A DNA stretch of 64,000 bases from Alteromonas sp. RKMC-009 (GTDB lineage Bacteria > Pseudomonadota > Gammaproteobacteria > Enterobacterales > Alteromonadaceae): positions 1,054,001 through 1,118,000 of the forward strand of contig NZ_CP031010.1 in NCBI RefSeq assembly GCF_003584565.2, in the 5' to 3' direction. The translations under genes were made by a program, and so were the position numbers. The notes under the pieces were generated by a model that was not told the origin of the DNA, did no database searches, and saw nothing but the letters and a program-made list of their open reading frames with translations. Below are positions 45,417 to 61,853 of the stretch, piece after piece. The number at the start of each line of letters is the position of its first letter. Positions within the stretch are counted from its first letter, which is position 1.

Positions 45417-45436
45417 TTACTTGAAAAGTAAAGTAA
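45417..45436. promoter_or_regulatory. Putative IacR operator, copy 1 (receptor gene)
   Basis: TTACTT-GAA-AAGTAA is a perfect inverted repeat followed by AGTAA; the same 20 bases occur at 48346-48365. It contains TTGAAA, a plausible -35 element, so binding would block transcription. It lies about 175 bases before the TonB-receptor start. Confidence 0.75.
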
Positions 45437-45610
45437 GTTGTATAAGGATAGTTCGAAGGTTGAAAATTCAATCAAATTATCAGGTTTTTGTACTCTGGCT
45501 AAGTTGATCAAAAACAAGGCATTTGAGCGAAGCAGTTTTGATACCTGTGAAAAGAAGGGGCAAAAGTCCCTCAGTAGAAAAAACAACAGGATCCAGCGAG
45601 GAACAACAAG

Positions 45611-47728
45611 ATGAGTGAATTTAAGCATTCCAGATTGGCGTGTGCGGTAATTAGTATTTTTTCTGTCAGTTTTGCGAGTTCAGCTTATGCTGAAGATGGT
45701 GATCAGGGAATCGAGAAAATAGAAGTCACAGCGACAAAACGAACAACAGGCCTTCAAGATACAGCAATAGCAATGAGTGCCTTTACAGGTGAAACTTTAA
45801 AAGAGAACGGCGTTAGCGAAGTTACTGACATTGCGACCCTTGCTCCCGGAGTATCAATTACGCAAAATTCTGCGAATGTCATAGTCAGTATTCGGGGTGT
45901 GAACAGTCAGGACACCAACGAAACTGGTAACCCTGCAGTTGCAATAGCACAGGATAGCTTTTATATCGAAAGAGCAAATTCTTTTTCAAATGCTCTATAT
46001 GACATGCAGCGAGTAGAGGTTTTACGAGGCCCTCAAGGCACTCTTTACGGTAAAAATGCGACGGGCGGAGTAATTAATTTTATTACAAATAAGCCTACAT
46101 CAGAACAAGAAGGCAGCGTTTCCGTTGGAATAGGCAACTATAATCTCATAACTGCTGAAGGTATGTTAAACGTACCAGTGACCGATGAAGTCAATATGCG
46201 TGCTGCTTTTTTTAGTAAATCTCATGACGGATACAGAGAAAATGAAGCTCCTGCGACTCCTGGCGATGATGCTGACATGAAAAGCGGACGCGTGCACTTA
46301 AGTTATGCTCCAAGCGATGATCTTAGTATTTTACTCAGCGGTCAGTGGACCGATCTTGGTGGGGTTGGAGCGACCGTACAAGGGGTTGCAATTGACGAAT
46401 GGAATAATGATGAAGTACCTTCTTTTGAGAAAGAAGGTATAGAACATAGCTTGCCGAGTCAGAAATTAGATCACTTCTACGAAACCTACCAGGTTCAGGT
46501 TGATTATTCTCTTGACTTCATGGATATCACACTACTTAGTGGATTGCGAAATTCTGACTACAGTCAAAGACGAGATTTAGACGGGACTGCCCGTGCTGAC
46601 CGGTATATGAACGTAAATGAAGATGTTCAGGATGTTTCACACGAATTAAGATTCTCTTCAAATACAGATAATGCGTTTAGCTGGCAGTTTGGTGGCAACT
46701 ACTTTAACGAGACAAATTCACTGTATTCAGTGTTCGAAAGTTGGGCTGTAGCGAATTCGCCAGATGGAATGATGACTTTTGATTTTGATGTTGAAACAAC
46801 GTCCAAAGCAGCGTTCATTCATACAGGTTACAAGTTAACAGAAACGCTGGAGCTCGAAGCGGGCCTGCGCCGTTCAAAGGATGAAGTATCGCGGAAAGGG
46901 CAGCAAGATGTATTCGGTACTGCGAGTGTTTATGATAACAATGCAGATAGTGCTAAAACTACGCACCACCTTGGCCTTAACTGGAAAATGAATGAAGACA
47001 CCTTACTTTATGTAAAGTCGACAAGTGGATATAAGGCCGGAGGCTTCAATAATTCTACGGATGTTGGAAGTGATGCGTATTCTCCGGAAACGTTGGATGC
47101 TATTGAAGTCGGATTGAAATCGCAGTTTTTTGATAATTCACTTCGGATAAATTCATCTGCCTTTACATACAAATATAAAGATCAACAAGTTAAAGTTACT
47201 GGCGCCAGTGGTCTATCAGCTATTGAAAATGCCGGGGAATCTAAAATCAACGGTTTAGAAGTAGAGTTTGTATGGCAAGTGACTAGTTATGACCGGGTTG
47301 ATGGTTCCGTGGTGCTTCTGGACGGAGAATATGAAGATTTATGTCTCGCTTATAGCTCAGATGGAGTATGTGCGACTGATTATGCTGGTAATGAGACAGC
47401 TATGACGCCAGATTCTCAGTTTAACTTGAGTTACGAACATGAGTTTTTGTTGGACGACGCTTCGCTTGTAGCTAAAGTGCAAACTCATTACGAGTCTGAG
47501 TCCTTCTTAGGTATCGAGAACTTCGGCTTCCAGTCGAGAGATGCTTACACAAAAACAGATCTCATTCTTACTTATTACAAAGATGATTGGAATGTCAGGG
47601 CGTATATTCGCAATATCGAGGATGACGTGGTTATCACCAGCGCAAATAAAAGTAGTTTATTCGGTACCTACAATTATGGTCTGATGGCTCCCAGAACATT
47701 TGGCGCAAGCATTTCTTACATTTTCTAA
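45611..47728 (+). CDS. TonB-dependent outer-membrane receptor
   Basis: 705 residues. The signal peptide ends near residue 27 (FASSAYAED), the TonB-box-like IEKIEVTATKR is at about 34-44, the plug domain runs to about residue 165 (VEVLRGPQGTLYGKNATGGVINFITNKP), and a 22-strand-type barrel ends in aromatic YIF. GAGGAACAACAAG precedes the ATG. It is of the type marine and oligotrophic bacteria use for organic substrates rather than a clear siderophore receptor. The shared operator with the iac operon implies uptake of an auxin or auxin conjugate. Confidence 0.9.
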   Translation: MSEFKHSRLACAVISIFSVSFASSAYAEDGDQGIEKIEVTATKRTTGLQDTAIAMSAFTGETLKENGVSEVTDIATLAPGVSITQNSANVIVSIRGVNSQDTNETGNPAVAIAQDSFYIERANSFSNALYDMQRVEVLRGPQGTLYGKNATGGVINFITNKPTSEQEGSVSVGIGNYNLITAEGMLNVPVTDEVNMRAAFFSKSHDGYRENEAPATPGDDADMKSGRVHLSYAPSDDLSILLSGQWTDLGGVGATVQGVAIDEWNNDEVPSFEKEGIEHSLPSQKLDHFYETYQVQVDYSLDFMDITLLSGLRNSDYSQRRDLDGTARADRYMNVNEDVQDVSHELRFSSNTDNAFSWQFGGNYFNETNSLYSVFESWAVANSPDGMMTFDFDVETTSKAAFIHTGYKLTETLELEAGLRRSKDEVSRKGQQDVFGTASVYDNNADSAKTTHHLGLNWKMNEDTLLYVKSTSGYKAGGFNNSTDVGSDAYSPETLDAIEVGLKSQFFDNSLRINSSAFTYKYKDQQVKVTGASGLSAIENAGESKINGLEVEFVWQVTSYDRVDGSVVLLDGEYEDLCLAYSSDGVCATDYAGNETAMTPDSQFNLSYEHEFLLDDASLVAKVQTHYESESFLGIENFGFQSRDAYTKTDLILTYYKDDWNVRAYIRNIEDDVVITSANKSSLFGTYNYGLMAPRTFGASISYIF

Positions 47729-47737
47729 ATCAAAATG

Positions 47738-47764: not shown

Positions 47765-47766
47765 TT

Positions 47767-48225
47767 CTAGCCTTCGATGTTAGTAAATAGTTTCGCAAGA
47801 GAAGTATTTAATTGTTTTATATCTTCTTCGTTGAAGCCCTCAAAGGCTTCATTGAATATTTTGGTTGTTGACTTTAATACGGATTGAAGTGTTTCATCAC
47901 CCTCAGTGGTGATTTTGACTATAGAAACTCTGGCATCGTCAAGGCTCGGCTTGACCTCCACGAGCCCTTTTTCTTTGAGTTTATAAACAACTTTAGTAAT
48001 AGTCGGTAACCTGGCTACAGCATGAGTGGCTATGTCGCTCATACTAATCGCACCGTTTTCCCGCAAGATCATACACACTCGCCATGATGTGATGTTCATA
48101 CCTACCTTTTTTAAAGCAAACTCCATACGGTGTTCATACCGGTTCCCGACTCTGGAAATCCAGTAAAACGGGAATTGACGGAATTCGAAATCTTTATCAA
48201 AAGGCTTAAAGTGTGAATCTGACAT
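47767..48225 (-). CDS. iacR: MarR-family regulator, probable IacR
   Basis: 152-residue winged-helix repressor: SMSDIATHAVARLPTITKVVYKLKEKGLV is the recognition region (about 56-84) and DDARVSIVKITTEGDE the wing. N- and C-terminal helices form the dimer. MarR proteins of aromatic-acid loci are usually relieved by the substrate; IacR does this for indole-3-acetic acid in known iac clusters. It is divergent from the iac operon, with the 20-bp inverted-repeat sequence in the shared upstream region 121 bases from its own start. CAGGACAAACT precedes the ATG. Confidence 0.8.
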   Translation of the reverse strand: MSDSHFKPFDKDFEFRQFPFYWISRVGNRYEHRMEFALKKVGMNITSWRVCMILRENGAISMSDIATHAVARLPTITKVVYKLKEKGLVEVKPSLDDARVSIVKITTEGDETLQSVLKSTTKIFNEAFEGFNEEDIKQLNTSLAKLFTNIEG

Positions 48226-48345: not shown

Positions 48346-48365
48346 TTACTTGAAAAGTAAAGTAA
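48346..48365. promoter_or_regulatory. Putative IacR operator, copy 2 (iac operon)
   Basis: The 20 bases TTACTTGAAAAGTAAAGTAA are identical to 45417-45436. Here they lie between iacR and iacH, 111 bases before the TTG start of iacH. The repeat again contains TTGAAA, usable as a -35 element, with A/T-rich -10-like sequence downstream. Confidence 0.75.
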
Positions 48366-48476: not shown

Positions 48477-49607
48477 TTGTTCACTCATAGTTTTATCAGT
48501 GGCACCGGAGATATCAAAGTTGTCATTAAAGATAATTTTGATATCAAAGGGTTAGTAACGACATGTGGAAGCAAGGCATTGTCGGATATGAACGCTGCGA
48601 AGAAAAATTCAGAAGTAGTTGAGAGAATAGTGGCGAGCAATCAATGTAGCCTCGTTGGCAGAGTCACGATGCATGAGTTGGCTTTCGGTATGACCGGAAT
48701 TAATCAGTGGGCAGGAACACCAGTAAATGTTCGATATCCGAATTTGATGCCCGGAGGTTCTTCTAGTGGTTCAGCGGTTGCTGTTGCTTCGGGGATTGCA
48801 GATTTTGCATTGGGCACTGATACAGGAGGATCGATCAGGTTACCCGCTGCCTGTTGCGGTGTTTATGGGTTCAAGCCGACTTTCGGAAGAGTGTCCAGAA
48901 AAGGTGTTCTGCCGGAAAACAGCTCTTTAGACTGCGTTGGCGTGCTTTCATCACAAGTTACATGCCTTACTAAAGGTCTTTCCATCATTGACCCGACGTT
49001 CGACTGGAGCATTCCTGACTTTGAACTTAAGCAACTGAGATTTGCTTTTCCGGTAATTCAACTTCATCCACTTATAAATTCTAAATTCACAGAACTTCTG
49101 AGTCAGTTATTTGATGAATCAAAAGCTGTGGAAATAAAATCTCTGTCAGATGCAAATGAAGCGGCCCGCATACTCATGGGGAGCGAAATGTTTACTGAAT
49201 TCAAACACCTCTTACCCTACAAAAAACTTGGTGCTGATGTTCAGAAACGGCTGGAAGAGGTAAAACCTCTGACTAATAAGAAGCTACATGAAATTGAGAG
49301 TATTAAAAACAATATAAACAATGAATTGAACAAAGTTTTCTTATCTTCTGATCTTTTAATCACCCCAACATTGCCATCTTCCCCATTAACTTTAAGCGAG
49401 GTGAAAGACGGTAAAGATGTATTGAGTCTTAGCGCATTAGTCCGGCCTTTCAATTTATCAGGCAATCCCTCTATAGCTATTCCTGCCGGAACATTGGAAG
49501 GAGCACCTTTCTCTCTACAAATAATTGGACCTCACGGTTCGGACGAACTTGTATGCAGCGCTGCTTATTTAATCAAAAGAAAATTAGTCAAACTCGGAGA
49601 ATTTTGA
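48477..49607 (+). CDS. iacH: Amidase-signature hydrolase, IacH-like
   Basis: 376 residues of the amidase-signature family with the full Ser-cisSer-Lys triad: Lys18 in VVIKDNFD, Ser95 in GGSSSGS and Ser119 in DTGGSIRLP. In the iac pathway IacH is reported to open the lactam ring of the oxidised oxindole intermediate, which fits an amidase here at the head of the operon. The TTG start is accepted because AAGTAAGGCGG lies just upstream and no in-frame ATG precedes the catalytic Lys. Four bases separate it from iacA. Confidence 0.8.
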   Translation: MFTHSFISGTGDIKVVIKDNFDIKGLVTTCGSKALSDMNAAKKNSEVVERIVASNQCSLVGRVTMHELAFGMTGINQWAGTPVNVRYPNLMPGGSSSGSAVAVASGIADFALGTDTGGSIRLPAACCGVYGFKPTFGRVSRKGVLPENSSLDCVGVLSSQVTCLTKGLSIIDPTFDWSIPDFELKQLRFAFPVIQLHPLINSKFTELLSQLFDESKAVEIKSLSDANEAARILMGSEMFTEFKHLLPYKKLGADVQKRLEEVKPLTNKKLHEIESIKNNINNELNKVFLSSDLLITPTLPSSPLTLSEVKDGKDVLSLSALVRPFNLSGNPSIAIPAGTLEGAPFSLQIIGPHGSDELVCSAAYLIKRKLVKLGEF

Positions 49608-49610
49608 AAC

Positions 49611-50753
49611 ATGTGGGAAATCGATAGAAGTCTTTGGGGTTCCGAAGACGAATTGGACCAGATACTGACCGAAATAAGAAGCAGAGCGAACGAGTTTGAA
49701 GAGCAGCGCTTTATCTCTCAGGACATCATAGACGGTTTGAAAAAAATAGGTGTCTATCGGGCATTTGTTCCAAAAAAATTCGGTGGTCTCGAAGTTTCAC
49801 CTATCGACTTTTTACTACTGATTGAAGAAATTGCAAAGTCAGATGGCTCAACTGGCTGGGTAGCCAGCTTTGGAATGAACCCCGCTTATCTGGCGGCGCT
49901 GCCAGAGCACACAGCTCAACAGATATGGAAGGATAGTCCCGATATAGTGTTTGCCGGAGGTATCTTCCCCGCAACTCCGTCAAGTGAAGAAAATGGACTC
50001 TACACAGTTAACGGCAGATGGAAATTTGCCAGTGGCTGTATGAGTGCAGATTATCTGGGCGTCGGAATCAAACCTTCTAATGATGAAAAACTGCCCAGAA
50101 TGGCCGTGTTACGGCCTGGACAGGTCAAAATAGAGAAAACCTGGGATGTGCATGGGATGGCCGGTACAGGGAGTTTTGATCTGGTTGTCGAGAATCAGCA
50201 CGTCGCTCACGACTGGACCTTCGTCCGTGGTGGTATGCCGACTATCAAATCTCCATTTTTTACATATCCGTCCCTCGCACTCGCTGCTCAGGTTTTGTCA
50301 GTAAATCAGTTAGGGCTTGCGCGCGAAGCGTTGAATATCATCCGTAAAGTTGGAAGCCGGAACAAAACTGTCACCGGTGCACCCAGTATCGGCGATCGCG
50401 AGTATGCACAAATTGATATAGCAAAAGCAGAAGCAAAAGTACTTGCAGCACGTGCATTCTTTTACAACGCCACACACGAACTATGGACACACATACTGAA
50501 GACCGGGGAGTCAGATGACAATCTGACAAACGCTGTTCGTTTGGCAACTACAAATGTTGCGAGAGAGTGTGCATCCGCAATTCAGACAGTATATCGAATA
50601 CTGGGAATGGCCGGTATCTACCGGGATCAGACGATGTCGAGAATTTTCAGAGATTCTCAAGTCATCACTCAGCATGCATTCATGGGTGAGTTCACCTATC
50701 AGAATGCTGGCCGAATGTTCTTCGGTTCCAATCCTTTTCCTGGTTACCTTTAA
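49611..50753 (+). CDS. iacA: Flavin-dependent monooxygenase of acyl-CoA dehydrogenase fold, IacA-like
   Basis: 380 residues with acyl-CoA-dehydrogenase architecture but of the group D monooxygenase type (HsaA/IacA): AKSDGSTGWVASFGMN near residues 70-85, WKFASGCMSADYLGVGI, and a C-terminal RIFRDSQVITQHAFMGEFTYQNAGRMFFG. It lacks the features of a fatty-acid dehydrogenase and is in an aromatic operon. In iac systems it hydroxylates indole-3-acetate with reduced flavin from IacG, which is encoded at 55389. GGAG lies upstream within the iacH end. Confidence 0.85.
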   Translation: MWEIDRSLWGSEDELDQILTEIRSRANEFEEQRFISQDIIDGLKKIGVYRAFVPKKFGGLEVSPIDFLLLIEEIAKSDGSTGWVASFGMNPAYLAALPEHTAQQIWKDSPDIVFAGGIFPATPSSEENGLYTVNGRWKFASGCMSADYLGVGIKPSNDEKLPRMAVLRPGQVKIEKTWDVHGMAGTGSFDLVVENQHVAHDWTFVRGGMPTIKSPFFTYPSLALAAQVLSVNQLGLAREALNIIRKVGSRNKTVTGAPSIGDREYAQIDIAKAEAKVLAARAFFYNATHELWTHILKTGESDDNLTNAVRLATTNVARECASAIQTVYRILGMAGIYRDQTMSRIFRDSQVITQHAFMGEFTYQNAGRMFFGSNPFPGYL

Positions 50754-50769: not shown

Positions 50770-51126
50770 ATGAAGTCAGATTCACTTAGAGTTTTGTTTT
50801 GTATAGGTATTAACCAAAATTTTATGGATGGTACCGAACAGGAGATGAAAGATGTTTGGGGTGCATTCAGCACTATGATGAGTTCCATAGCATCACTTCC
50901 TGACGTAAATGTTCTCGGTATTCTGGATGATGACCAATCCCAGGTTGGCGCTTCAGCAGATGCGCCCTGGACATGTTACATCATGGCAGATGTCCCTGAT
51001 TATCAAACAGTCGTAGAAGCCTGCAATTTCTTCCGCACTACGCCAGTGGGAGACGGAAAATTCAAATTGTGGAAATACGCAAAAGTTGAAGCCCGAATTG
51101 GCAGAAAACTGGTGGTTCCAGAATGA
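50770..51126 (+). CDS. iacB: IacB-like small protein
   Basis: 118 residues with the conserved-looking opening VLFCIGINQNFMDGTEQEM and a central LGILDDDQSQVG; predicted compact alpha/beta without signal peptide. The call rests on size and on its place directly after iacA, where iacB occurs in described clusters; its biochemical role is unknown there too. ACGGAGTAGCAAATT precedes the ATG, and its stop overlaps the next start. Confidence 0.65.
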   Translation: MKSDSLRVLFCIGINQNFMDGTEQEMKDVWGAFSTMMSSIASLPDVNVLGILDDDQSQVGASADAPWTCYIMADVPDYQTVVEACNFFRTTPVGDGKFKLWKYAKVEARIGRKLVVPE

Positions 51127-51641
51127 TGCAGGTTGAAAAGGAGCTGATATCAAGGCTGACGCTTCTGGAAGAAGAAAAAGCTGTGTCGGAGTGTATGAAG
51201 CGATATATGAAGCTCTGTGACGATCTTAATTCGGAAAAAGTCCTGAATGAGCTACTGAGCCTGTTTGCTGATAATGCAGTCTGGGAAGGAGTTGGCTCTC
51301 GCTATAGTAATTCTTTTGGAAGCATTAATGGACAGGATGCCATCAGGTCGATGTTTTCAAAGTACTGTAAAGCGCCACCTCACTTTTCTATGAATCTCCA
51401 CTTTTTGGGAAACGAAACTATTCATATAAGCGACCTCGATGCCAGGGGCGAGTGGACATTACTGCAACCCTGTTCAATGAGTAGCGGGGAATCCAGGCTC
51501 AGCTGTGCGCAAATTACTGCAGAATTTAGGAAAATTGACCACCAATGGAAAATTACACTTTTCCAGACGAGAAGTATTTTTAACAGGCTTATGAACAGTC
51601 AGTGGGATGACCAGACAAGTCAACCTGTACCACAAAGGTAG
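51123..51641 (+). CDS. iacI: SnoaL-like protein, IacI-like
   Basis: 172 residues with an NTF2/SnoaL-type fold pattern: N-terminal helices (EEEKAVSECMKRYMKLCDDL), LLSLFADNAVWEGVG near residues 42-56, then strands ending HQWKITLFQTRSIF. This fold serves as polyketide cyclase, isomerase or ring-hydroxylase beta subunit. IacI of known clusters has comparable size and no established reaction. Start overlaps iacB by four bases; ATG 51126 is an alternative. IacC starts eight bases downstream. Confidence 0.65.
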   Translation: MMQVEKELISRLTLLEEEKAVSECMKRYMKLCDDLNSEKVLNELLSLFADNAVWEGVGSRYSNSFGSINGQDAIRSMFSKYCKAPPHFSMNLHFLGNETIHISDLDARGEWTLLQPCSMSSGESRLSCAQITAEFRKIDHQWKITLFQTRSIFNRLMNSQWDDQTSQPVPQR

Positions 51642-51648: not shown

Positions 51649-52944
51649 ATGACAGATATAATATTTACAGATAAAAAAATTTCAGAATCAAATTGGAAAG
51701 ATGAACTCGTTCAGGAAGACCGGGTACATAAATCTCTTTATTCAGATGAAACGATATTCAATCGTGAGTTGGAAAAAGTCTTTAACCACACTTGGGTATG
51801 GGTCGCACATGAGAGTGAGATTCCTGACAAAGGATCTTATAAAACCGCAATGATTGGCAAACAGCCCGTGATTGTTGCCAGGGACCGCAAAAACAATATT
51901 CATGTATTAGAGAACCGGTGTCGTCACAGAGGCGCAACAGTTTGTGAGGGTAAAAAGGGTAAAACTAAATCCTTTAGCTGTCCTTATCATGGTTGGGGTT
52001 ACGCTCTGGATGGCGAGCTCAGAGCTCTGCCTATCCCGGAAGAATACGATGGAATTTTAGAGAAAGAAAAATTTGGTCTGGTAAGTCTCCGGCATGAGAC
52101 TTTCATGGGGATGATATTTGCAACACTTGACGTTGATCTTGAACCACTTGAGGACTTTCTTGCAGGTGCAAAAAAGTGGATAAAGTTATTCATGAAACAG
52201 TCTGGTGGCTACCCAATGAAGGTACTCGGAGACCACAGGTTCAGATTTCCGGGAAATTGGAAAATACAACTGGAAAACACAACTGATGCATACCACTTTC
52301 CGATAGTTCATAAATCCTTCATCTCTTCGATAGACGAGCAAACACAAGAAGTATTTGATTTCCTGGGCGGGGATGGATTTGTCGAAGACCTTGGGAACGG
52401 ACATAGTGTGATGGTCATGATTCCCGAGTTAGTCGACCTGGAAAGTAATCTTGAAGAGCCAATACCAGAAAGGTTTGAAGAGCTCGCCCAAGATCTCAGA
52501 AGTGAAGGTATTGAAGAACCTGAAATCAGGAGATTAGTTCGCGCGGTGGGCGGAACCGGCTTCAACTTGAATTTATTTCCGAATATATCCTGTTCCATGG
52601 CTTTTTTCCGAAACCTTGTACCCATTTCAGCCCGGGAAACAGAAATCCATCATATTGCCATTGGTGGAGACGGCGCACCAACTCCTTTTAATCAAAAGCG
52701 TATTCGATTGCATGAGCATTTTCAGGGACCAATGGGCTTCGGTACTCCGGATGATGGTGAAGCCTGGGAGCGGGTCCAGAAAGGTTCGTTATCAGGGGTT
52801 GACGGCTGGATCATGGTCAACCGGGGTCAAAACAACCTGAGAACTTCAGAAGATGGAAATGTACAGGGAGCAGTTTGTTCTGAAACGGGAATGAGAGCTG
52901 CCTATCAACAATATAAAAAACTAATGACCATTAAAAAAGGTTGA
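51649..52944 (+). CDS. iacC: Rieske aromatic-ring oxygenase alpha subunit, IacC-like
   Basis: 431 residues. Rieske 2Fe-2S ligands Cys91/His93 and Cys111/His114 (CRH and CPYH) are intact; the mononuclear iron site is DAYHFPIVH with Asp213, His216 and His221. In the iac pathway IacCD converts the ring-opened intermediate to catechol using electrons from IacF. ATG 51649 has AAAGGTAGGTATGCC upstream; an in-frame start inside iacI is rejected. The beta subunit follows by ten bases. Confidence 0.88.
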   Translation: MTDIIFTDKKISESNWKDELVQEDRVHKSLYSDETIFNRELEKVFNHTWVWVAHESEIPDKGSYKTAMIGKQPVIVARDRKNNIHVLENRCRHRGATVCEGKKGKTKSFSCPYHGWGYALDGELRALPIPEEYDGILEKEKFGLVSLRHETFMGMIFATLDVDLEPLEDFLAGAKKWIKLFMKQSGGYPMKVLGDHRFRFPGNWKIQLENTTDAYHFPIVHKSFISSIDEQTQEVFDFLGGDGFVEDLGNGHSVMVMIPELVDLESNLEEPIPERFEELAQDLRSEGIEEPEIRRLVRAVGGTGFNLNLFPNISCSMAFFRNLVPISARETEIHHIAIGGDGAPTPFNQKRIRLHEHFQGPMGFGTPDDGEAWERVQKGSLSGVDGWIMVNRGQNNLRTSEDGNVQGAVCSETGMRAAYQQYKKLMTIKKG

Positions 52945-52954: not shown

Positions 52955-53437
52955 ATGCAAGATTTGGAACTACTTGATGAAAAAGCCAGACAATTTTTAG
53001 AGTGTGAAGCAGATTATTTAGACAATAAAGAGTACGAAGCATGGCTTTCTTTATGGGATGAAGCTGGCCTGTATATCGTGCCAGTAGATCATTCAGCAAC
53101 AGATTTTGAAAACTCTGTAAATGTTGCTTACGACAACAGTGAAATGCGTTCTGAGCGAGTCAGAAGGCTGACGGGCGGGGAAGCTGTTTCTACATCTAAC
53201 TCACTTCCGACTGTCAGAACTTTATCCAGGTTTCGTCTTTTAGAAAATACCGGGACTGAACTTACCGTTCGCTGTGCTTATTGTCTGTTTGAGAACAATA
53301 AGAATGGTATCAGGCAATTTCCCGCGAACGTAGAGTTTGTGCTTAAAGTTACGTCAGATGGTTACAAAATTCTGAGAAAGGTTGTCCGGGTTATGAAATC
53401 TGATGAGTATCTGACAACTGTAAGTTTTTTATTTTAG
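52955..53437 (+). CDS. iacD: Aromatic-ring oxygenase beta subunit, IacD-like
   Basis: 160 residues of the ring-hydroxylating dioxygenase beta family: acid-rich N terminus ARQFLECEADYLDNKEYEAWLSLW and FRLLENTGTELTVRCAYCLFENN near residues 90-112. It is a structural partner giving the alpha3beta3 form. GAGGAGCCCCTG precedes the ATG. Confidence 0.85.
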   Translation: MQDLELLDEKARQFLECEADYLDNKEYEAWLSLWDEAGLYIVPVDHSATDFENSVNVAYDNSEMRSERVRRLTGGEAVSTSNSLPTVRTLSRFRLLENTGTELTVRCAYCLFENNKNGIRQFPANVEFVLKVTSDGYKILRKVVRVMKSDEYLTTVSFLF

Positions 53438-53453
53438 AAAGGCGTTGAAAACT

Positions 53454-54197: not shown

Positions 54198-54216
54198 CAG
54201 GTCTTCGGAGAGCAAA

Positions 54217-55170
54217 GTGAAAAGTCAATTTATCAAGGCACGTATTATATCCCGGGAGACACATGGTGGCTCGGTAGCTGTTATTTCATTAACCGGAGAC
54301 GGCTGCAAACTACCTGCATTTTCTGCCGGAGCACACATAGATATATTCGTAAGTGATGACATAACTCGTCAGTACTCTTTATGCGGAAGCCCGGAGATCG
54401 CTAATCTCTATAAAGTCGGCATTTTGAATGATCCGGAGTCCCGGGGCGGATCAAGTTTTATTTATGAGCATTTCGACAAAGGACGTACTGTTTTCATCAG
54501 CACTCCCAGAAATCATTTCCCTCTGGAAAATAACGTCAGTAAAGCAATCCTGATTGGCGGTGGGATTGGCATTACCCCTTTGTTGTCAATGGCATACAAA
54601 TTAAAGTCTGAAGGAAAACCATTTGAAATTCACTATTGTGTGAAGACGTCAAAGACGGCGGGGTTCATTGATGAGCTGGCTCAAAATTTTGCTGATTCTA
54701 CTCATATTTATGAGTCACAGTCAGCGACACCGAACAAGTTAGACGCGATGGCATTGTTTAGCCGGTTGGAAGGCAATGAAGAGATTTATATCTGCGGACC
54801 AGATAAATTTATGGAGTCAATCCGGTCCAGTGCTTCCTCAGCAGGTTTTACGGAAAAACAAATCCATACAGAGTATTTCTCTGGCGACATTGACACATCA
54901 GGTCAAGCTTTCGAAGTCGTATGTGAGCAAAGTGGAAAAACCCTTAGTGTAGCAGCTGATGAGACGATTGCAGATGCCCTGAAAGCTGCAGGCATTAAGG
55001 TTCAAATGTCATGTGCTGAAGGTGTTTGCGGGACCTGTATCACTGATGTTCTTGAAGGTGAGCCGGAGCATCGTGATCTGTTCCTTAGCGACGAAGAAAA
55101 AGCTGACAATGATCAAATTGCAGTGTGCTGTTCGAGAGCAAAGTCAAAACGATTAGTGCTTGATATATAA
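54217..55170 (+). CDS. iacF: Oxygenase reductase with C-terminal 2Fe-2S domain, IacF-like
   Basis: 317 residues of the phthalate-dioxygenase-reductase type: flavin-binding RQYSLCGSP near residue 57, NAD-binding IGGGIGITPLLSMAY near 113-127, then a plant-type ferredoxin domain with Cys266, Cys271 and Cys274 in CAEGVCGTC and a last cysteine in AVCCS near 304. It passes NADH electrons to IacCD. GTG 54217 is chosen because CGGAGAGCAAA lies directly upstream; a longer frame overlaps iacE. Confidence 0.88.
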   Translation: MKSQFIKARIISRETHGGSVAVISLTGDGCKLPAFSAGAHIDIFVSDDITRQYSLCGSPEIANLYKVGILNDPESRGGSSFIYEHFDKGRTVFISTPRNHFPLENNVSKAILIGGGIGITPLLSMAYKLKSEGKPFEIHYCVKTSKTAGFIDELAQNFADSTHIYESQSATPNKLDAMALFSRLEGNEEIYICGPDKFMESIRSSASSAGFTEKQIHTEYFSGDIDTSGQAFEVVCEQSGKTLSVAADETIADALKAAGIKVQMSCAEGVCGTCITDVLEGEPEHRDLFLSDEEKADNDQIAVCCSRAKSKRLVLDI

Positions 55171-55190: not shown

Positions 55191-55382
55191 ATGCCAATTG
55201 TAAAAGTTGAAATGATTCAGGGGAGAACACCTGAGCAAATTGAAAAACTTATCGAATCAGTAGCGAAAGCGGTTAATGAATCAATAGGTGCTCCTGAAGA
55301 AAGCATCAGGGTGATGGTAAAAGAATACCCGAACACACATTGGGGTATCGGTACAAAGCAAGCTTATAAGCTCGGAAGGTAA
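55191..55382 (+). CDS. 4-oxalocrotonate-tautomerase-family protein
   Basis: 63 residues, MPIVKVEMIQGRTPEQIEKL onward: Pro2 would be the N-terminal catalytic base after Met removal, and Arg12 and Arg40 occupy positions like the substrate arginines of the family. Length fits the 4-OT hexamers. The gene is inside the iac operon, between iacF and iacG, where described clusters have no such gene as far as I recall. It may act on an enol form of a pathway intermediate; a role in catechol meta-cleavage is possible but no partner genes are present. Confidence 0.85.
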   Translation: MPIVKVEMIQGRTPEQIEKLIESVAKAVNESIGAPEESIRVMVKEYPNTHWGIGTKQAYKLGR

Positions 55383-55388
55383 ATGACT

Positions 55389-55880
55389 ATGAGTATTAAA
55401 CAAAATTTGCGTCGTGCATTAGGTCAGTTTCCGACCGGTGTGACAGTGATGACGGCCAGAAAAGGCAACGAATTGGTTGGTGTGACTGCCAGCAGCTTCA
55501 ATACTGTGTCACTTGAGCCTCCACTTATTCTGTGGAGCATAGATAAAGCCGCGTTCAGCGCCGATATTTTTATAAACAGTGATTATTTCACGGTGAATGT
55601 ACTCAACGAATCACAAACAGATATTTCAAACAAATTTGCGAGTAAAGGCGCTGATAAGTTTTCTGATGTGGATTTTGAGAATGGTTTGGGGAATGTACCT
55701 TTACTGAATCATTGTATAGCTAATTTTCAATGTGAAGTCTGGAACGTTCATGATGGCGGCGACCACTACATCATAATTGGTGAAGTTAAAAAGTATGATT
55801 ACAGTGAAAATCTAAAGCCACTTGTTTTTTCGCAGGGTCAATATAGCAGTCTTGTTCCCATGGCTACACTGCAAAATTAG
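55389..55880 (+). CDS. iacG: Flavin reductase, IacG-like
   Basis: 163 residues of the FMN-binding split-barrel flavin reductase family (HpaC/HsaB type): RRALGQFPTGVTVMTARKG near residues 8-26, GVTASSFNTVSLEPPLILW near 30-48, and FQCEVWNVHDGGDHYIIIGEV near 117-137. It supplies reduced flavin to the IacA monooxygenase. GGAAGG at 55374-55379 is spaced for ATG 55389; ATG 55383 lies too close. The stop is followed by an M20 gene after 12 bases. Confidence 0.87.
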   Translation: MSIKQNLRRALGQFPTGVTVMTARKGNELVGVTASSFNTVSLEPPLILWSIDKAAFSADIFINSDYFTVNVLNESQTDISNKFASKGADKFSDVDFENGLGNVPLLNHCIANFQCEVWNVHDGGDHYIIIGEVKKYDYSENLKPLVFSQGQYSSLVPMATLQN

Positions 55881-55892: not shown

Positions 55893-57356
55893 TTGAAAAT
55901 TACAGTTTTGCTTTGTTTTCTTTTTTTTATCGGGTCTTCAATTCAGTGGGCTGTCTCTGAGGAGTTAGATGATAAGCGTTTTGTAGAAACAAATACAAAA
56001 GCGATTGCGGGTGAAATCACCCGGCTTTCCGATGCCGTTTGGCGCTATGCTGAAGTGGGATTTGTGGAGCGAAAGAGTTCGTCTGAATTGGCGGCTTATC
56101 TTGAAAAAAACGATTTTAAGATCGACATGGACGTGGCAGGCATGCCAACAGCATTTGTCGCCTCATATGGTTCCGGAGGACCGGTAATCGCCTTGCTCGG
56201 TGAGTTCGATGCATTACCTCAATTATCACAAACAACTGACACTTTCAGACAATCAGCTAACGGTGTAGCAGGCCATGGGTGTGGGCATAACTTACTTGGA
56301 GCTGCTTCTGCTGGTGCCGCGGTTCTTGTAAAGAAATGGCTGGAAGAGAATGAAGTAGATGCCACGGTAAAATATTTTGGGGCACCTGCTGAAGAAGGTG
56401 GTTCAGGGAAAGTATATCTTGCCCGGGATGGCTATTTTGATGACGTCGATATTGTCCTGCACTGGCATCCAAGTGACTCTAACAATACCAACTCATTATT
56501 GAAGACGCTTGCCGTTATTTCAGCCAAGTTCAGGTTTTACGGAACATCAGCCCATGCCGCGGGGACACCTGAAGAAGGACGGTCCGCACTTGATGCAGTG
56601 GAATCAATGAACTACATGGTCAACATGATGCGTGAGCATGTACCTGACTCGACAAGAATTCACTATGTTATTACCGATGGTGGCGGTGCGCCCAATGTAG
56701 TGCCAAATTTTTCCGAAGTTTATTACTACGTGCGGAGTCCGGATGTAAACGTGCTTAAGGAAGTATTTAATCGGGTAGTCAAGGCAGCTGATGGTGCAGC
56801 TCTCGGAACCGAAACGCGTATGGATTATGAAAAGGTAGGGGGTACATATAGTCTGCTTGCTAACTTAACACTTAATTCAATATTGGATACAAACCTCAGA
56901 AAATTTGGTGGCGTCGAATACAGCGAAACAGAAATCGCATATGCCAACGAAATCCGAAAGACCGTTTCGCGCTCTAAATTGCCAGAGTTAGACTCTGCAA
57001 ACTACATCCCCCCGCTGACAAATGAAATCGTACTGGCTTCGGGCTCTACCGATGTAGGTGACGTGTCATGGATTGTACCTACTGCAGGAATAAATATCGC
57101 TACATGGGTACCTGGTACGTCCTTTCACAGTTGGCAAGCTGTTGCAGCCAGCGGTATGTCCATTGGTCATAAAGGAGAGCTACTAGCAGCGAAAACGCTT
57201 GCCTTGTCGGCAATTGATTTGATCAAGGACCCTGAAAAAGTGAAGCAGGTCCGGGAAGAATGGTTGAGTCGCAGAGGTAATGAATTTCAATACGAATCAC
57301 TTTTAGGTGACAGAGCTCCGGCATTGAATTACAGGGTGAAATATGACCAGCAATAA
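55893..57356 (+). CDS. Exported M20-family amidohydrolase
   Basis: 487 residues. A signal peptide (KITVLLCFLFFIGSSIQWAVS) is followed by an M20/AbgB-like metallopeptidase: GEFDALPQLSQ near residue 100, GHGCGHNLLGAASAG near 128-142, GAPAEEGGSGKV near 168-179 and LHWHPSD near 190-196 carry the dimetal ligands; SAHAAGTPEEGRSALDA is the dimerisation-domain motif. Relatives cleave p-aminobenzoyl-glutamate, and plant ILR1-type relatives cleave auxin-amino-acid conjugates. In an auxin locus the latter is the natural inference. The start is TTG with GGAG upstream; its end overlaps the next gene by 14 bases. Confidence 0.85.
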   Translation: MKITVLLCFLFFIGSSIQWAVSEELDDKRFVETNTKAIAGEITRLSDAVWRYAEVGFVERKSSSELAAYLEKNDFKIDMDVAGMPTAFVASYGSGGPVIALLGEFDALPQLSQTTDTFRQSANGVAGHGCGHNLLGAASAGAAVLVKKWLEENEVDATVKYFGAPAEEGGSGKVYLARDGYFDDVDIVLHWHPSDSNNTNSLLKTLAVISAKFRFYGTSAHAAGTPEEGRSALDAVESMNYMVNMMREHVPDSTRIHYVITDGGGAPNVVPNFSEVYYYVRSPDVNVLKEVFNRVVKAADGAALGTETRMDYEKVGGTYSLLANLTLNSILDTNLRKFGGVEYSETEIAYANEIRKTVSRSKLPELDSANYIPPLTNEIVLASGSTDVGDVSWIVPTAGINIATWVPGTSFHSWQAVAASGMSIGHKGELLAAKTLALSAIDLIKDPEKVKQVREEWLSRRGNEFQYESLLGDRAPALNYRVKYDQQ

Positions 57357-57903
57357 CTCTAATCTCCCTCCTATCAGCCGTCGCTCATTACTCAAAGCAA
57401 TAAGCGTTAGTCTGGCAGGTGTGTCCGGTCAGGTACTCGCTGACTATTCAATTGCTTTCAGTCGAATAAACCCATCGGTCACGGATTGGACGGAAGAAAC
57501 CAAAACAATGGTAGCGTCTTTGTGCGAATGTATTATTCCAAAAACAGACACGCCGGGGGCAATTGAATCAGGTGTCCCCCAGTTTGTTGAATCTGTTTAC
57601 GCAGACTTGTTATCCACCGAAGCGCAAAGTGAGTTTTTTGCTGCGTTGGCTGAGTTGAACAAAGCTGCGCAAGAAGAGTTTGGATTCACTTTTTCAGAAT
57701 GCCCGGTGAGTGAGCAAAACAAGATTGTATCGACCTTTTCCTGCCACTCATATGAGCTATACAAGTCTCTGCAGCGCATTATCACAGTCGGCTATTTTAC
57801 CTCAATGAACGGGGTTACTAAGGCACTTTCTTACAACCCTATGCCACTTAAATACGATGGAAGTGTTGAGGTTAGTGGTTTTCCAAAGCAGTGGGCGTAT
57901 TAA
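57343..57903 (+). CDS. Tat-exported small subunit of a GMC sugar dehydrogenase
   Basis: 186 residues of the gluconate-2-dehydrogenase subunit 3 family. The twin-arginine motif SRRSLLK is at residues 12-18, followed by a hydrophobic stretch to about residue 35; CECIIPKTDTPGAIESGVPQFVE near 52-75 is the family hallmark. The folded large subunit usually rides through Tat with this partner. One base separates its stop from the GMC gene. It overlaps the M20 gene, tying this module to the conjugate hydrolase. Confidence 0.85.
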   Translation: MTSNNSNLPPISRRSLLKAISVSLAGVSGQVLADYSIAFSRINPSVTDWTEETKTMVASLCECIIPKTDTPGAIESGVPQFVESVYADLLSTEAQSEFFAALAELNKAAQEEFGFTFSECPVSEQNKIVSTFSCHSYELYKSLQRIITVGYFTSMNGVTKALSYNPMPLKYDGSVEVSGFPKQWAY

Positions 57904-57904
57904 A

Positions 57905-59581
57905 ATGGACAAACATTATGATGCTATCGTTGTTGGATCGGGCATATCTGGTGGTTGGGCCGCGAAAGAATTGACAGAAAAAGGCCTGAACGTTCTTGTT
58001 CTCGAAAGGGGGAAGATGGTTAAACATGTCCGGGACTATAAAGGGGAGCATATGCCCCCCTGGAAAATACCCTACGGTGGGATGCCAATTGACAAACTTT
58101 ATGATGAAGAATATGCAGTTCAAAGAAATTGCTATGCGTTTAATGAAACGACGAGACACTTCTGGAATAACGACAAACTTAACCCCTACGATGCAGGAGA
58201 TAGCAATTTTGAATGGATTCGGGGTGACGTTGTTGGTGGTCGCTCCCTTATGTGGGGGAGGCATTCATATAGATTAAGTGACCTGGATTTCAATGCAAAC
58301 AATGTTGATGGTTATGGTGTTGACTGGCCAATAAGGTATCAGGATATTGCTCCGTGGTATGACTATGTTGAAAGCTTTATCGGAGTAAGTGGTCAACCTG
58401 AAGGGTTAGAGCACTTTCCTGATGGTAACTATTTGCCGCCAATGGAATTAAACATTGCTGAGAAGCATTTTCGTAAAGTACTTACCGGCAACTATGCAGA
58501 AAGAACACTTACCATAGGCAGAATTGCCGTACTAACAAAACCACACAATGGCAGGGGACAATGTCATTATTGCGGTCCCTGTGAGAGAGGATGTTCGGTT
58601 GGAGCTTACTTTTCCAGTCAAAGCTCTACCCTACCTGCTGCTGAAAAAACCGGCCGCCTTACTTTACTCTCCGACATGGTTGTTGAAAAGCTTGAATATG
58701 ACGAACAAAAAAAACGTGTTTCAGCGGTTCATGTTATCAACGCCACCACCGGTGAAAAGAAATCATTTCGCTCAAAAATAGTCTTTTTGTGTGCGTCGAC
58801 TATTGCCACAGCGCAGATACTACTCAATTCCAAAAGTGACAGGTTCCCAAATGGACTCGGAAACGATTCGGGTCAGGTCGGCCGCAATTTGATGGATCAC
58901 ACTATGGGGGTATTTGCTACGGGATATTTCGACACGTTTCAGGATTACACTGAGTTTGGTCAAAGGCCTACAGGTATATATATTCCCAGGTTCAGAAATA
59001 TCTCGAATGAAGAGAACCTGCCATTCGTGAGGGGATATGGATTTCAGGGACGTGCAAAAAGGGACGATTGGAGAGCTCAACTCGCAGAGTCTGGTGATTT
59101 TGGTGTCGATTTTAAAAAGCATCTGGAAACTCCCGGAAAGTGGAAGATGACGTTAGTCGGGCTTGGTGAGTGTCTTCCCAATGAAGACAACCGGGTTACC
59201 CTCGCAGAAAAAACAGACCGTTTCGGAATTCCTCAGGCCAAAATCAGTTTTGCTTATCAGAAAAATGAACACGAAATGATGAAAGATATTGGTCAGGAAG
59301 CTGAAGCTATGCTTCTCACCGCAGGTTGCAAGGATGTCGCTGTCGACATCCGCCCCCCTGTTCCGGGAAGAACTATACATGAGATGGGGACAGCCAGGAT
59401 GGGGAATGACGCCGGGACATCTGTACTCAACGGCTGGAATCAGATGCATTCAGTTCCCAATGTCTTTATTACCGACGGTTCATGTATGTCCTCATCATCT
59501 TGTGTAAATCCGTCACTAACCTACATGGCTCTCACCGCCAGAGCCGCAGATTTTGCTGCCAAAAACATTAAAACAATATAA
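57905..59581 (+). CDS. GMC oxidoreductase, glucoside-3-dehydrogenase type
   Basis: 558 residues. FAD-binding GSGISG at 11-16, ERG at the second beta strand, conserved His492 in HEMGTARMG and Asn in CVNPSLTYMALTARAAD near the end are the GMC catalytic features. A cysteine cluster CHYCGPCERGC (Cys220, 223, 226, 230) resembles the iron-sulfur-type motif of bacterial FAD sugar dehydrogenases. Relatives oxidise gluconate, sorbose or the C3 hydroxyl of glucosides. No own signal peptide: Tat hitch-hiking with the small subunit is expected. No cytochrome subunit follows, so the electron acceptor is unknown. ATG 57905 preferred over an upstream in-frame start. Confidence 0.87.
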   Translation: MDKHYDAIVVGSGISGGWAAKELTEKGLNVLVLERGKMVKHVRDYKGEHMPPWKIPYGGMPIDKLYDEEYAVQRNCYAFNETTRHFWNNDKLNPYDAGDSNFEWIRGDVVGGRSLMWGRHSYRLSDLDFNANNVDGYGVDWPIRYQDIAPWYDYVESFIGVSGQPEGLEHFPDGNYLPPMELNIAEKHFRKVLTGNYAERTLTIGRIAVLTKPHNGRGQCHYCGPCERGCSVGAYFSSQSSTLPAAEKTGRLTLLSDMVVEKLEYDEQKKRVSAVHVINATTGEKKSFRSKIVFLCASTIATAQILLNSKSDRFPNGLGNDSGQVGRNLMDHTMGVFATGYFDTFQDYTEFGQRPTGIYIPRFRNISNEENLPFVRGYGFQGRAKRDDWRAQLAESGDFGVDFKKHLETPGKWKMTLVGLGECLPNEDNRVTLAEKTDRFGIPQAKISFAYQKNEHEMMKDIGQEAEAMLLTAGCKDVAVDIRPPVPGRTIHEMGTARMGNDAGTSVLNGWNQMHSVPNVFITDGSCMSSSSCVNPSLTYMALTARAADFAAKNIKTI

Positions 59582-59598
59582 TTACCGGAGTGGCTCAC

Positions 59599-60531
59599 AT
59601 GCACAGAAGACAATTTATAAAATATTCAACTGTATTATTCGCTTCAGTGGGAGCCGGAGCATGCTCTGTTCAGGTGCAATCAAAGTCTCTGAATACAAGT
59701 CTTGGCGTTCAGCTATTTATGCTTAGAGAATCGATGCAGAAATCGCCGGAGAAAACTCTGGAGGAAATTGCTGGTATTGGTTTTAAAGAGGTGGAGCTTT
59801 TCGGATTTGGTAAAAGTCTGTTCAACAGTGATCCGTTCTTTGGTCTTGGGCCCCGTAGATTTTCTGAAGTGTTGAAAAACAATGGTCTTACTGCCCCGAT
59901 AGCTCACCTCGCCGGTAGCGTAGATGATGAAGAGAAACTTGCTGAACTTGCCGATATCGTTGCAATAAAAAGGTTTGTCATAGCAATGCCGCCGGAGTTT
60001 GTTGACAGGACGAGCGGACGGGCCAGGATTGTTGGTGTTCAGTCTCTTGAACAACTTGACCGGATGAGCGAAAGGCTTAATAACGAGGCCAGTAAACTAA
60101 GCAAACACGGTATTGGCTTCGGCTATCACAACCACAATATGGAATTTAAGAACGTCGGCGGGGTTGTAGCTTTTGATTATCTTATGCAACAACTCGACAG
60201 AAACTTAGTTGCAATTGAACTGGATTTAGGTTGGGTCGCAGCGGCAGGGCTCAGTCCTGTTCAATGGATTAACAAATATGGAAGCCGCATTCAATCAGTA
60301 CATTTGAAAGATTATTCATCTTCAATACCTGCAGGCCTGGATTCTACAAAATATCCAATTCCTGAAATGTCTCAATTGGTGCTTCCGGGACATGGCGATC
60401 TTAAATTTAAAGATATTTTTAATGCGTTAGACAGCATGGGCATAAAGCATAGATTTTTAGAAGTAGATTTACCTCAAAATCCAATGGAAGAAGCTCAGAT
60501 TGGTTTTTCATATTTAAGTCGATATTTGTAA
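59599..60531 (+). CDS. Exported sugar phosphate isomerase/epimerase-type TIM barrel
   Basis: 310 residues of the AP-endonuclease-2-like xylose-isomerase fold. N terminus HRRQFIKYS is a Tat-like motif and AGAC before Ser is a lipobox-like site, so a Tat lipoprotein is likely. Metal-site strands: LGVQLFML, VELFGFG, GYHNHNMEF, ELDLGWVAAAG, VHLKDYS, LPGHGDLKFKDIF and RFLEVD. Such proteins act on 3-keto sugars after GMC oxidation in some glycoside pathways. GGAG at 59587-59590 fits ATG 59599 rather than GTG 59590. Substrate is inferred from neighbours only. Confidence 0.82.
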   Translation: MHRRQFIKYSTVLFASVGAGACSVQVQSKSLNTSLGVQLFMLRESMQKSPEKTLEEIAGIGFKEVELFGFGKSLFNSDPFFGLGPRRFSEVLKNNGLTAPIAHLAGSVDDEEKLAELADIVAIKRFVIAMPPEFVDRTSGRARIVGVQSLEQLDRMSERLNNEASKLSKHGIGFGYHNHNMEFKNVGGVVAFDYLMQQLDRNLVAIELDLGWVAAAGLSPVQWINKYGSRIQSVHLKDYSSSIPAGLDSTKYPIPEMSQLVLPGHGDLKFKDIFNALDSMGIKHRFLEVDLPQNPMEEAQIGFSYLSRYL

Positions 60532-60548
60532 CATTCCGGGAGGAAAAC

Positions 60549-61853
60549 ATGAGCATGTCATCTTCCGTAATTCCGGAAAATAGATTTGTGTCCTACAGAC
60601 AGTACGTCCTGATAATCATTTGCTTTTTTCTCAATATCGTGGACGGGTTCGACATTACTATGATTGCTGTCACTATTGCCGATATTGGGAAATCCCTCGA
60701 AATTCGTGAAGCATCGCAAGGAATTGTTTTTAGTTTTGCACTAGCAGGGATGATGATCGGTGCAATGGTCGTTGCTCCTGTTTCCGATTTAATTGGTCGC
60801 CGGGTTTTATTGCTTTTGTCTTTGGCCACAATTGTGATCAGTGTTAGTTGCACTCCCTTATCTGTAAATTTATCAACACTTGCATTTTTTCGCTTTCTCA
60901 GCGGGCTCGGGGGCGGGGCGCTTCTCGCAGCTCAGGCTACACTTGTCAGTGAGTTTTCACCTGAAAGATATAAAACATTATGCGTTACATTTGTAACTGC
61001 GGGGTATCCTATCGGCGCTATGACTACCGGCTTTGTGGCAACTTTGGTAATACCCGAATATGGCTGGCATGTTATGTTCTATATTGGCGGAGCGTTGACA
61101 CTCTTTCTTCTCGTTCTTTCCTCAACACTGCTACCGGAATCTGTCGAGTTTTTATTAATTAAGCAGCCTAAGAATGCAGACGTAAAGTTAAAGAAGATCT
61201 TAAGTGATTTTAATATTAGCAATGGCCCGGTTCATTTCGAATCAATAACCCGAAAGAATGGTCTTATAAGTAATATTCAGGCGTTGTTTCTACCATCTAA
61301 CCGCAAAGCCACATTGCTGCTCTGGTTGGTTTTTTGCTCCTGTTCATCAACACTTTATTTTTTAATGAGCTGGATTCCGAAGCTCGCTACCCAAATTGGC
61401 TTTGAGCAGTCAGTGTCTTATTCTGCATTTTCCTATTTTAGTTTCGGTGGTGTATGCGGAATTCTTTTACTCGGTTTTTTATCCTCAAGGTTCGAAGTTG
61501 TAAAATTAGTCGGCGTGTTTTTATTTTTCTCTACCTTGTTCATGTTGCTAATGGCTTATGGTGCGGAAAACGAACTTATGTTCTTATTCAGTATCTATTT
61601 TGTGGGGCTTACGCTTCAGAGTGCTTATAATGCGCTTTATGCTGTAGCTACGAGACTTTATCCTGCTGCTGTACGAAGTACCGGAGTGGGTTGGGCAATA
61701 GGCATTGGCAGATTAGGCGCTGTTATTGCTCCTGCTGTTGCTGGTGTGCTACTGGCAAACGGAACGGGCGCATCTTCGAGCATTGGCCTATTTTCTTTAC
61801 CAATTCTAATATCTTCATTTGCAGCATTCTTAATAATGAAAGAAACAAAATAA
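60549..61853 (+). CDS. MFS transporter, aromatic acid:H+ symporter type
   Basis: 434 residues, 12 hydrophobic helices. NIVDGFDITMIAVTIADIG near residues 28-46 carries the DGFD motif of the AAHS family (PcaK, BenK), and SDLIGRRVLLLLS is the MFS loop 2-3 motif. Central cytoplasmic loop around residues 205-235. It probably carries free indole-3-acetate or a related aromatic acid into the cytoplasm. GGGAGGAAAAC precedes the ATG. It is the last gene of the island's plus-strand run, followed by a hairpin. Confidence 0.87.
   Translation: MSMSSSVIPENRFVSYRQYVLIIICFFLNIVDGFDITMIAVTIADIGKSLEIREASQGIVFSFALAGMMIGAMVVAPVSDLIGRRVLLLLSLATIVISVSCTPLSVNLSTLAFFRFLSGLGGGALLAAQATLVSEFSPERYKTLCVTFVTAGYPIGAMTTGFVATLVIPEYGWHVMFYIGGALTLFLLVLSSTLLPESVEFLLIKQPKNADVKLKKILSDFNISNGPVHFESITRKNGLISNIQALFLPSNRKATLLLWLVFCSCSSTLYFLMSWIPKLATQIGFEQSVSYSAFSYFSFGGVCGILLLGFLSSRFEVVKLVGVFLFFSTLFMLLMAYGAENELMFLFSIYFVGLTLQSAYNALYAVATRLYPAAVRSTGVGWAIGIGRLGAVIAPAVAGVLLANGTGASSSIGLFSLPILISSFAAFLIMKETK

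Follow-up and report, generated by a model that had tools for sequence, protein, structure and literature searches.

An iac-type auxin degradation locus in Alteromonas sp. RKMC-009 with a candidate conjugate-opening cassette

Introduction

Can a bacterial locus that degrades the auxin indole-3-acetic acid (IAA) also reach the conjugates in which the hormone is stored? The question is raised by a 64,000-nt stretch of the genome of Alteromonas sp. RKMC-009 (contig NZ_CP031010.1, positions 1,054,001 to 1,118,000; hereafter the window), in which a set of iac genes runs on into genes for an M20 hydrolase, a GMC dehydrogenase with a small subunit, a TIM barrel protein and an MFS transporter. Auxin removal by bacteria alters plant and algal growth, and iac loci are described in the accessible literature as acting on free IAA. 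If this locus also opens stored conjugates, a hidden hormone pool would be reached and the storage forms would become a bacterial carbon source. The iac locus is genuine, and its accessory set is new; whether the locus is an IacR-controlled IAA locus extended at its 3′ side by a periplasmic conjugate-opening cassette is, in our estimate, an evenly balanced question.

The window was analyzed through lists of open reading frames (ORFs) with their translations and through Pfam and NCBIfam scans of its proteins, and the export signals of the M20 protein, the small subunit and the TIM barrel were judged by eye. The comparison set consisted of 58 other iac loci from 57 genomes, searched at a match threshold of E 1e-4. 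These loci are non-independent, most being drawn from two families, and the set leaves out two further IacC matches on other contigs of one genome (G1457).

Results

A rare iac locus with a shared operator-like site

The ORF lists and domain scans revealed a gene run from the TonB receptor gene (from 45611) to the end of the MFS gene (61853), with iacR read leftward and iacHABICDEFG rightward (Table 1). The initial annotation, made from the letters of the window, had named these genes at the right places with the right domains and had described a one-strand iac run with a divergent MarR gene, all of which the scans bear out. As for the two small proteins that it mentioned, iacI is SnoaL-like, while iacB has no Pfam or NCBIfam match and is recognized through homology. 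HsaA/HPAH-type models match iacA below cut-off.

Adjacent iacC and iacD homologues stand alongside iacA, B, E, F, G, H and I, which is the composition of an iac-type locus. Compared with solved structures, the regulator scored 137 bits with 7kua, 106 with 7l19 and 89 with 7l1i, the last two of which we take to be the IacR proteins of Enterobacter soli and Acinetobacter baumannii, respectively, against 39.5 bits with 7kfo (Variovorax MarR_73), so that by these bit scores it is an IacR-type rather than an IadR-type MarR protein. In the accessible text of PMC9613470, 7KUA is the IacR of Pseudomonas putida and 7KFO is MarR_73, and 7L19 and 7L1I are also listed. Gene content, gene order and the match to a solved IacR make the iac identity, and with it the assignment as an iac-type IAA degradation locus, well supported. 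Conversion of IAA to catechol is predicted. The genome also carries muconate cycloisomerase (catB) and catechol 1,2-dioxygenase (catA, TIGR02439) genes, both above their NCBIfam cut-offs, which adjoin a benzoate dioxygenase-like gene scoring just under its cut-off and lie about 160 kb from the island.

The nearest relative is a same-genus genome (G002) in which the TonB gene, the MFS gene, iacR and iacHABICDEFG are all present (identities in Table 1). At 1e-60, IacC was matched only in the present genome (G000) and G002 among the 60 genomes searched, the present one included, with no match in 34 other same-genus genomes; iac is therefore rare among genomes near the present one. Wider samples, again counting the present genome, were also searched for IacC: at class level 2 of 369 genomes had a match (1e-120), at order level 4 of 394 (1e-150) and at phylum level 11 of 398 (1e-140). 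A DNA-level plasmid search returned 28 records, none spanning 80% of the iac part. Some genomes carry two or three IacC matches (G1483, loci L240 and L241; G1162, L125; G1457, L243), and at L125 and L240 the iac set is partly split or partly without match.

A 20-bp near-palindrome, TTACTTGAAAAGTAAAGTAA, occurs in identical copies before the TonB gene and in the iacR-iacH gap; position 45417, where the initial annotation began the island, is the first base of the first copy. With up to three mismatches, the 18-base core matched twice in the window against a mean of 0.11 in 100 window shuffles, none of which reached two. Across the 5.0-Mb genome the same tolerance gave three matches, namely the two exact copies and one with three mismatches, and no third site was found within two mismatches. 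The three-mismatch site was set aside because the reversed control also yielded one. In G002, a one-mismatch copy precedes iacH in the iacR-iacH gap and a two-mismatch copy lies between the divergent TonB and MFS genes. Among the 58 other iac loci, a copy was found within two mismatches in 10 and within four in 20; the corresponding maxima over 200 letter shuffles were 0 and 5, and the reversed control produced the same counts. The 10 loci represent three lineages: eight belong to one genus, and the others are G002 and G1568. At the one locus of the eight-member genus that was read (L103), the site lies just 5′ of apparent TRAP transporter genes, outside any iacR-iacH gap. These patterns make the near-palindrome a good candidate operator for the present locus and its close relatives, but not for iac loci at large. 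Since the site is identical before iacH and the TonB gene and no third genomic copy lies within two mismatches, the TonB receptor probably belongs to the IacR regulon, and the shared site is the best evidence for this. The TonB proteins of the present locus and G002 are only 27% identical, and among the 58 other iac loci G002 alone gave TonB and MFS matches.

A tautomerase gene recurs before iacG

The initial annotation did not list a small gene in the 212-bp gap between iacF and iacG, whose product fits the 4-oxalocrotonate tautomerase family of about 62 residues with Pro1, Arg11 and Arg39. These three residues have functional roles in 4-oxalocrotonate tautomerase (4-OT), and a proline after the start and two arginines are kept in 22 of 22 tautomerase sequences, the present one included. 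Homologues were found in 21 of the 58 other iac loci (E 1e-4), and in 19 of these the gene lies between iacF and iacG, 25-71 bp separating its match from that of iacG; 12 of the 19 have more than 3 kb between iacF and the tautomerase. In the remaining two loci, the contig ends first in one and the tautomerase is 3′ of iacG in the other.

In one scheme proposed in the accessible part of PMC7225977, the IacA product 2-hydroxy-IAA tautomerises to Ox-IAA, and the same source reports that Ox-IAA was not converted by purified IacE, yet was converted by an Escherichia coli extract with IacE. The tautomerase may act at the 2-hydroxy-IAA/Ox-IAA step, and such an enzyme between IacA and IacE would explain conversion by the extract and not by the purified protein. 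The recurring tautomerase offers a direct test of an unresolved iac-pathway step. A literature search, with most subscription papers outside its coverage, found no paper joining tautomerase, iacA and indole-3-acetic acid; "4-oxalocrotonate tautomerase" was absent from the papers searched for it and "tautomerase" from the main text of PMC11630574. A need for the gene in meta-cleavage was rejected: of four genomic matches to the catechol 2,3-dioxygenase model, not one exceeded the cut-off, and the ortho-cleavage gene catA does exceed its own.

A cassette of predicted hydrolytic and redox enzymes follows iacG

From iacG to the MFS gene, neighboring genes overlap or are separated by at most 17 bp, in keeping with the unbroken continuation described in the initial annotation. 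The closest relatives of the M20 protein in the PDB are HmrA and PM20D2, and several further relatives are named aminobenzoyl-glutamate utilization protein B (AbgB) by JGI, these being source names only. An ILR1-type identity was rejected by sequence and fold, the closest relatives not being ILR1/ILL proteins.

The GMC dehydrogenase had been described as exported by the twin-arginine translocation (Tat) system. Its GMC domains were confirmed, but the protein has no signal of its own; by eye, the twin-arginine signal sits on a separate small subunit of the gluconate_2-dh3 (G2DH3) family, missed in the initial annotation, and the GMC protein therefore probably rides with this partner. Beyond the window's own sequence its best relatives are 61-62% identical, and two 58% relatives are named glucoside 3-dehydrogenase (cytochrome c) catalytic subunit by their source. 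The GMC fold and a His-containing HEMGTAR motif are present, the latter compared by eye with the His493 mutagenesis primers for the GIN611 enzyme in the accessible text of PMC4650693. The protein reads as a glucoside 3-dehydrogenase, predicted to oxidize the 3-OH of a glucoside. In the TIM barrel, whose Tat lipoprotein-like character was upheld by eye, H180, H182, D212, H238 and E291 correspond to H132, H134, D163, H189 and E233, which are the metal ligands and catalytic histidine of AtOGE (phmmer alignment to 8bvk, hand-counted), and these five residues are invariant in 33 aligned sequences, the query included. Its best named fold matches are 3-keto-beta-glucopyranoside 1,2-lyases at 22-24% identity. 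Together, the two proteins read as a predicted periplasmic oxidative deglycosylation pair, a glucoside 3-dehydrogenase and a 3-keto-glucoside 1,2-lyase. For the MFS protein, the aromatic-acid assignment of the initial annotation holds in that TIGR00895 is the best model, although the score is under its cut-off.

The M20, G2DH3, GMC and TIM proteins had no match at E 1e-4 in the 58 other iac loci, an absence that is weak evidence in the 10 stretches shorter than 17 kb. Likewise, the cassette is absent in the stretches read of the plasmid-collection iac loci L161, L162, L164 and L165, although in L165 a TonB gene does lie close to iac; L163 contains only part of the cluster. For M20 and the TIM barrel, the top metagenome relatives are set apart from the rest (69% against 59% or less, and 62% against 43% or less, respectively) and may point to a second carrier. 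Conversely, GMC matches were found in 61 of 147 genomes of the family, the present genome counted. Among 54 GMC loci from genome contigs, G2DH3 matches were present at 31 and TIM matches at 14, with no iacA, iacC or M20 match in the stretches covered. The present genome has seven GMC loci including the island copy; at the six others, a G2DH3-type match was found at five, a TIM match at two, and no iacA, iacC or M20 match nearby. Other GMC/G2DH3/TIM sets of the same family (L095, L096) lie alongside apparent LacI-type regulators and sugar MFS genes (by eye), which suggests that the module ordinarily serves glycoside use.

The junction at iacG and the island edges

IacG is shortened exactly where the cassette joins. 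Its orthologues (at least 48% identity) measure about 302-319 aa from the match start in 33 of 34 other loci, the last one having 164 aa; the present protein has 165 aa, and the M20 start lies 12 bp past its stop. The half that is absent is MarR-like, with one weak tblastn match to iacR (E 1.6e-5). The cassette may therefore have replaced the end of iacG.

Each of 15 further same-genus genomes that were searched has the HlyIII flank. In seven of them, 20-kb stretches covering the HlyIII gene and its island side gave no match at 1e-15 to the genes of the right flank (GDH, GreA-type, Hmp, NorR and HPP), and because of this no empty site could be defined. The island genes have a GC content of 0.40-0.46 compared with 0.486 for window positions 1-44 kb; other stretches of the genome had 0.49-0.51 (five) or 0.44-0.45 (two), and because of these two, base composition was not used as proof of transfer.

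At the right edge, window positions 62074-62901 (828 bp) are 97% identical to positions 1122972-1123799 of the same contig (G000:C1) and form a truncated second copy of an HPP-family gene. The intact copy lies about 7 kb beyond the truncated one, and the duplication marks a rearranged edge; a transposase-like ORF (by eye) follows just past the intact copy (G000:C1:1123980-1125020; L060:8981-10021). To the left of the TonB gene, a low-GC stretch (45000-45326) matches only the last half of an NYN domain and looks like gene debris. Elsewhere in the window, a 41-bp inverted repeat (18115-18155) is 93% self-complementary. A promoter and terminator scan gave a site count no higher than in shuffles.

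Table 1. Features of the iac locus and the adjoining cassette (window positions; last column, percent protein identity to the G002 counterpart).
Feature	Position	Strand	Domains and remarks	Identity
Putative IacR operator copy 1, before TonB receptor	45417..45436	.	TTACTTGAAAAGTAAAGTAA, identical to copy 2	
TonB-dependent outer-membrane receptor	45611..47728	+	PF00593, PF07715; plug and barrel domains	27
iacR, MarR-family regulator	47767..48225	-	Best solved relative 7kua	48
Putative IacR operator copy 2, iacR-iacH intergenic	48346..48365	.	Exact copy of TTACTTGAAAAGTAAAGTAA	
iacH, amidase family	48477..49607	+	PF01425; TTG start as called	40
iacA, group D flavin monooxygenase	49611..50753	+	Acyl-CoA_dh domains	56
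iacB	50770..51126	+	Matched in 55/58 other iac loci	75
iacI, SnoaL-like	51123..51641	+	PF13577	47
iacC, Rieske oxygenase alpha subunit	51649..52944	+	PF00355, PF00848; listed ORF opens 51607	81
iacD, Rieske oxygenase beta subunit	52955..53437	+	PF00866	62
iacE, short-chain dehydrogenase	53445..54197	+	PF00106	57
iacF, oxygenase reductase	54139..55170	+	PF00111 Fer2 and NAD-binding; start uncertain, iacE overlap as listed	51
Tautomerase, 4-oxalocrotonate tautomerase family	55191..55382	+	PF01361 52.9 bits; TIGR00013 above cut-off; 63 aa	
iacG, flavin reductase without C-terminal MarR-like domain	55383..55880	+	PF01613; 165 aa	56
M20 metallo-amidohydrolase	55893..57356	+	TIGR01891 above cut-off; N-terminal export signal (by eye)	
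Tat-signal small subunit, gluconate_2-dh3 family	57343..57903	+	PF13618 77.8 bits; twin-arginine motif by eye	
GMC dehydrogenase, glucoside-3-dehydrogenase type	57905..59581	+	PF00732, PF05199; listed ORF opens 57857	
TIM barrel, 3-keto-glucoside lyase type	59590..60531	+	PF01261 (xylose-isomerase-like); twin-arginine and lipobox-like features (by eye)	
MFS transporter, aromatic acid/H+ symport type	60549..61853	+	MFS_1; TIGR00895 337.5 bits, best model, under cut-off 418.55	

Discussion

In the reading that we favor, conjugated auxin would pass the outer membrane through the TonB receptor. Amide-linked amino-acid conjugates such as IAA-aspartate would be cleaved in the periplasm by the M20 enzyme. 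On a sugar conjugate, IAA-glucose for example, the Tat-exported GMC/small-subunit pair would oxidize the 3-OH, and the TIM barrel would then expel IAA by beta-elimination. The MFS protein would transport IAA inward, IacA, G, E, C, D, F, H and I with the tautomerase would convert it to catechol, and catA would open the catechol. The gene identities, the fold and active-site matches, the shared operator-like site, the tight run and the catA-catB pair come from the sequence; from these we infer every substrate, including the action of the cassette on IAA-aspartate and IAA-glucose, as well as the export and transport steps, derepression by IAA and the service of the cassette to auxin catabolism. 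The initial annotation had proposed a complete conjugate route from the outer membrane to catechol. Its iac part stands and its sugar part has gained concrete enzymology, which makes the conjugate route plausible, but the catechol-opening genes are outside the island. According to the accessible part of PMC5218379, green algae convert labelled IAA to IAA-Asp and IAA-glucosyl ester as two major products, and the fit of two cassette enzyme types to two algal conjugate classes is suggestive only. We consider it unlikely that a more far-reaching version would hold as a whole, in which a single regulon would handle conjugated algal auxin all the way from outer membrane to catechol through redox deglycosylation instead of a glycosidase, and an unnoticed, dedicated tautomerase would work between IacA and IacE in a sizeable subset of iac operons.

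Several observations weigh against parts of the favored reading. The plant ILR1-type IAA-amino-acid hydrolases are not the nearest relatives of the M20 protein, and endogenous IAA-Asp was near the detection limit in green algae in the accessible part of PMC5218379. No site within four mismatches was found in 38 of the 58 loci, many having iacR nearby. A TonB gene near iac is also found in G002 and on a Novosphingobium plasmid, so that the receptor does sit beside the regulator, as had been noted, but its unusual status is weakened. Finally, 37 of the 58 iac loci show no tautomerase gene in the stretch read, and the tautomerase therefore cannot be essential in every iac locus unless supplied from elsewhere. 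Other points favor the possibility that M20, GMC, TIM and MFS form a cassette for scavenging glycosides and peptides in general, which came to lie behind a real iac set and is merely co-transcribed: the abundance of GMC relatives in the family, the six further GMC loci of the genome with their G2DH3-type and TIM matches, a 50% M20 relative on a Novosphingobium plasmid near TonB matches with no iac match, and the lack of the cassette in all 58 other iac loci. This would not account so readily for an MFS protein nearest to the aromatic-acid and not the sugar type, for the operator-like site common to the TonB receptor, or for two enzyme types that match the two conjugate classes reported for algae (PMC5218379, accessible part), and we regard it as a real but somewhat doubtful possibility.

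It is improbable, in our view, that the substrates of the cassette are conjugates of a different indole or aryl acid, one that broad IacA and IacE enzymes can also oxidize. The IacA of Caballeronia glathei does oxidize many indole derivatives, including indole-3-lactic and indole-3-propionic acid (PMC7225977, accessible part), and the AbgB-type names of several M20 relatives suggest aryl-acyl amino acids in general, but the regulator closely resembles solved ones that control IAA catabolism. The same regulator, with its high score to 7kua and low score to Variovorax MarR_73, speaks against another aromatic pathway or an iad (isatin/anthranilate) type, as does the full iac set in iac order, whose homologues occur together in most of the 58 other iac loci. 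The NCBIfam models nearest to IacC are indeed anthranilate and benzoate dioxygenases, all far under cut-off; such an identity is already contradicted by the evidence and highly implausible.

The iac clusters of P. putida 1290, A. baumannii, E. soli and C. glathei have iacABCDEFGHI and iacR in common with the present locus. The direct protein comparison was with the A. baumannii record (L161), which has the same order iacH-A-B-I-C-D-E-F-G, a divergent iacR and 34-70% identity per protein; the other three were compared through the IacR PDB entry only. Relative to these clusters, the present locus adds the TonB receptor with its operator-like site, the tautomerase and the M20/small subunit/GMC/TIM/MFS genes, and its IacG lacks the C-terminal domain. 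The Marinomonas clusters, as far as PMC11373566 was accessible, place an iac set in marine, alga-associated bacteria; they include amino-acid ABC genes, have no M20, GMC or TIM gene in the paper's table, and carry iacR and iacH at opposite cluster ends. Locus L103 (genome G422) has apparent aldolase and reductase genes as in that source (by eye) and carries the tautomerase.

The cassette has its closest parallels in the GlycDH-AtOGE-AtHYD operon of Agrobacterium tumefaciens (PMC10628242) and the FAD-GO system of Rhizobium sp. GIN611 (PMC4650693), which, in the accessible texts, likewise combine a flavin 3-dehydrogenase with a metal-dependent TIM-barrel eliminase. FAD-GO also has a putative Tat small protein, as in the present island (PMC4650693). 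In contrast to these systems, the island has no Gfo reductase or second TIM barrel, is joined to an auxin pathway and is predicted to be periplasmic (by eye). The best named fold matches of the TIM barrel are the lyases BT1 and AL1 (PDB 8tct, 8tcd, 8tcr), whose activity is predicted here at the low identity given above. For M20, the HmrA, PM20D2 and AbgB types are the best sequence or fold matches, or the source names of relatives; unlike them, the present protein appears exported (by eye) and sits in an auxin locus. What this analysis mainly adds to the initial annotation is an operator-like site common to iacH and the TonB gene, a tautomerase that had gone unlisted, an IacG that ends early at the junction, and an interpretation of GMC and TIM as a predicted oxidative deglycosylation pair.

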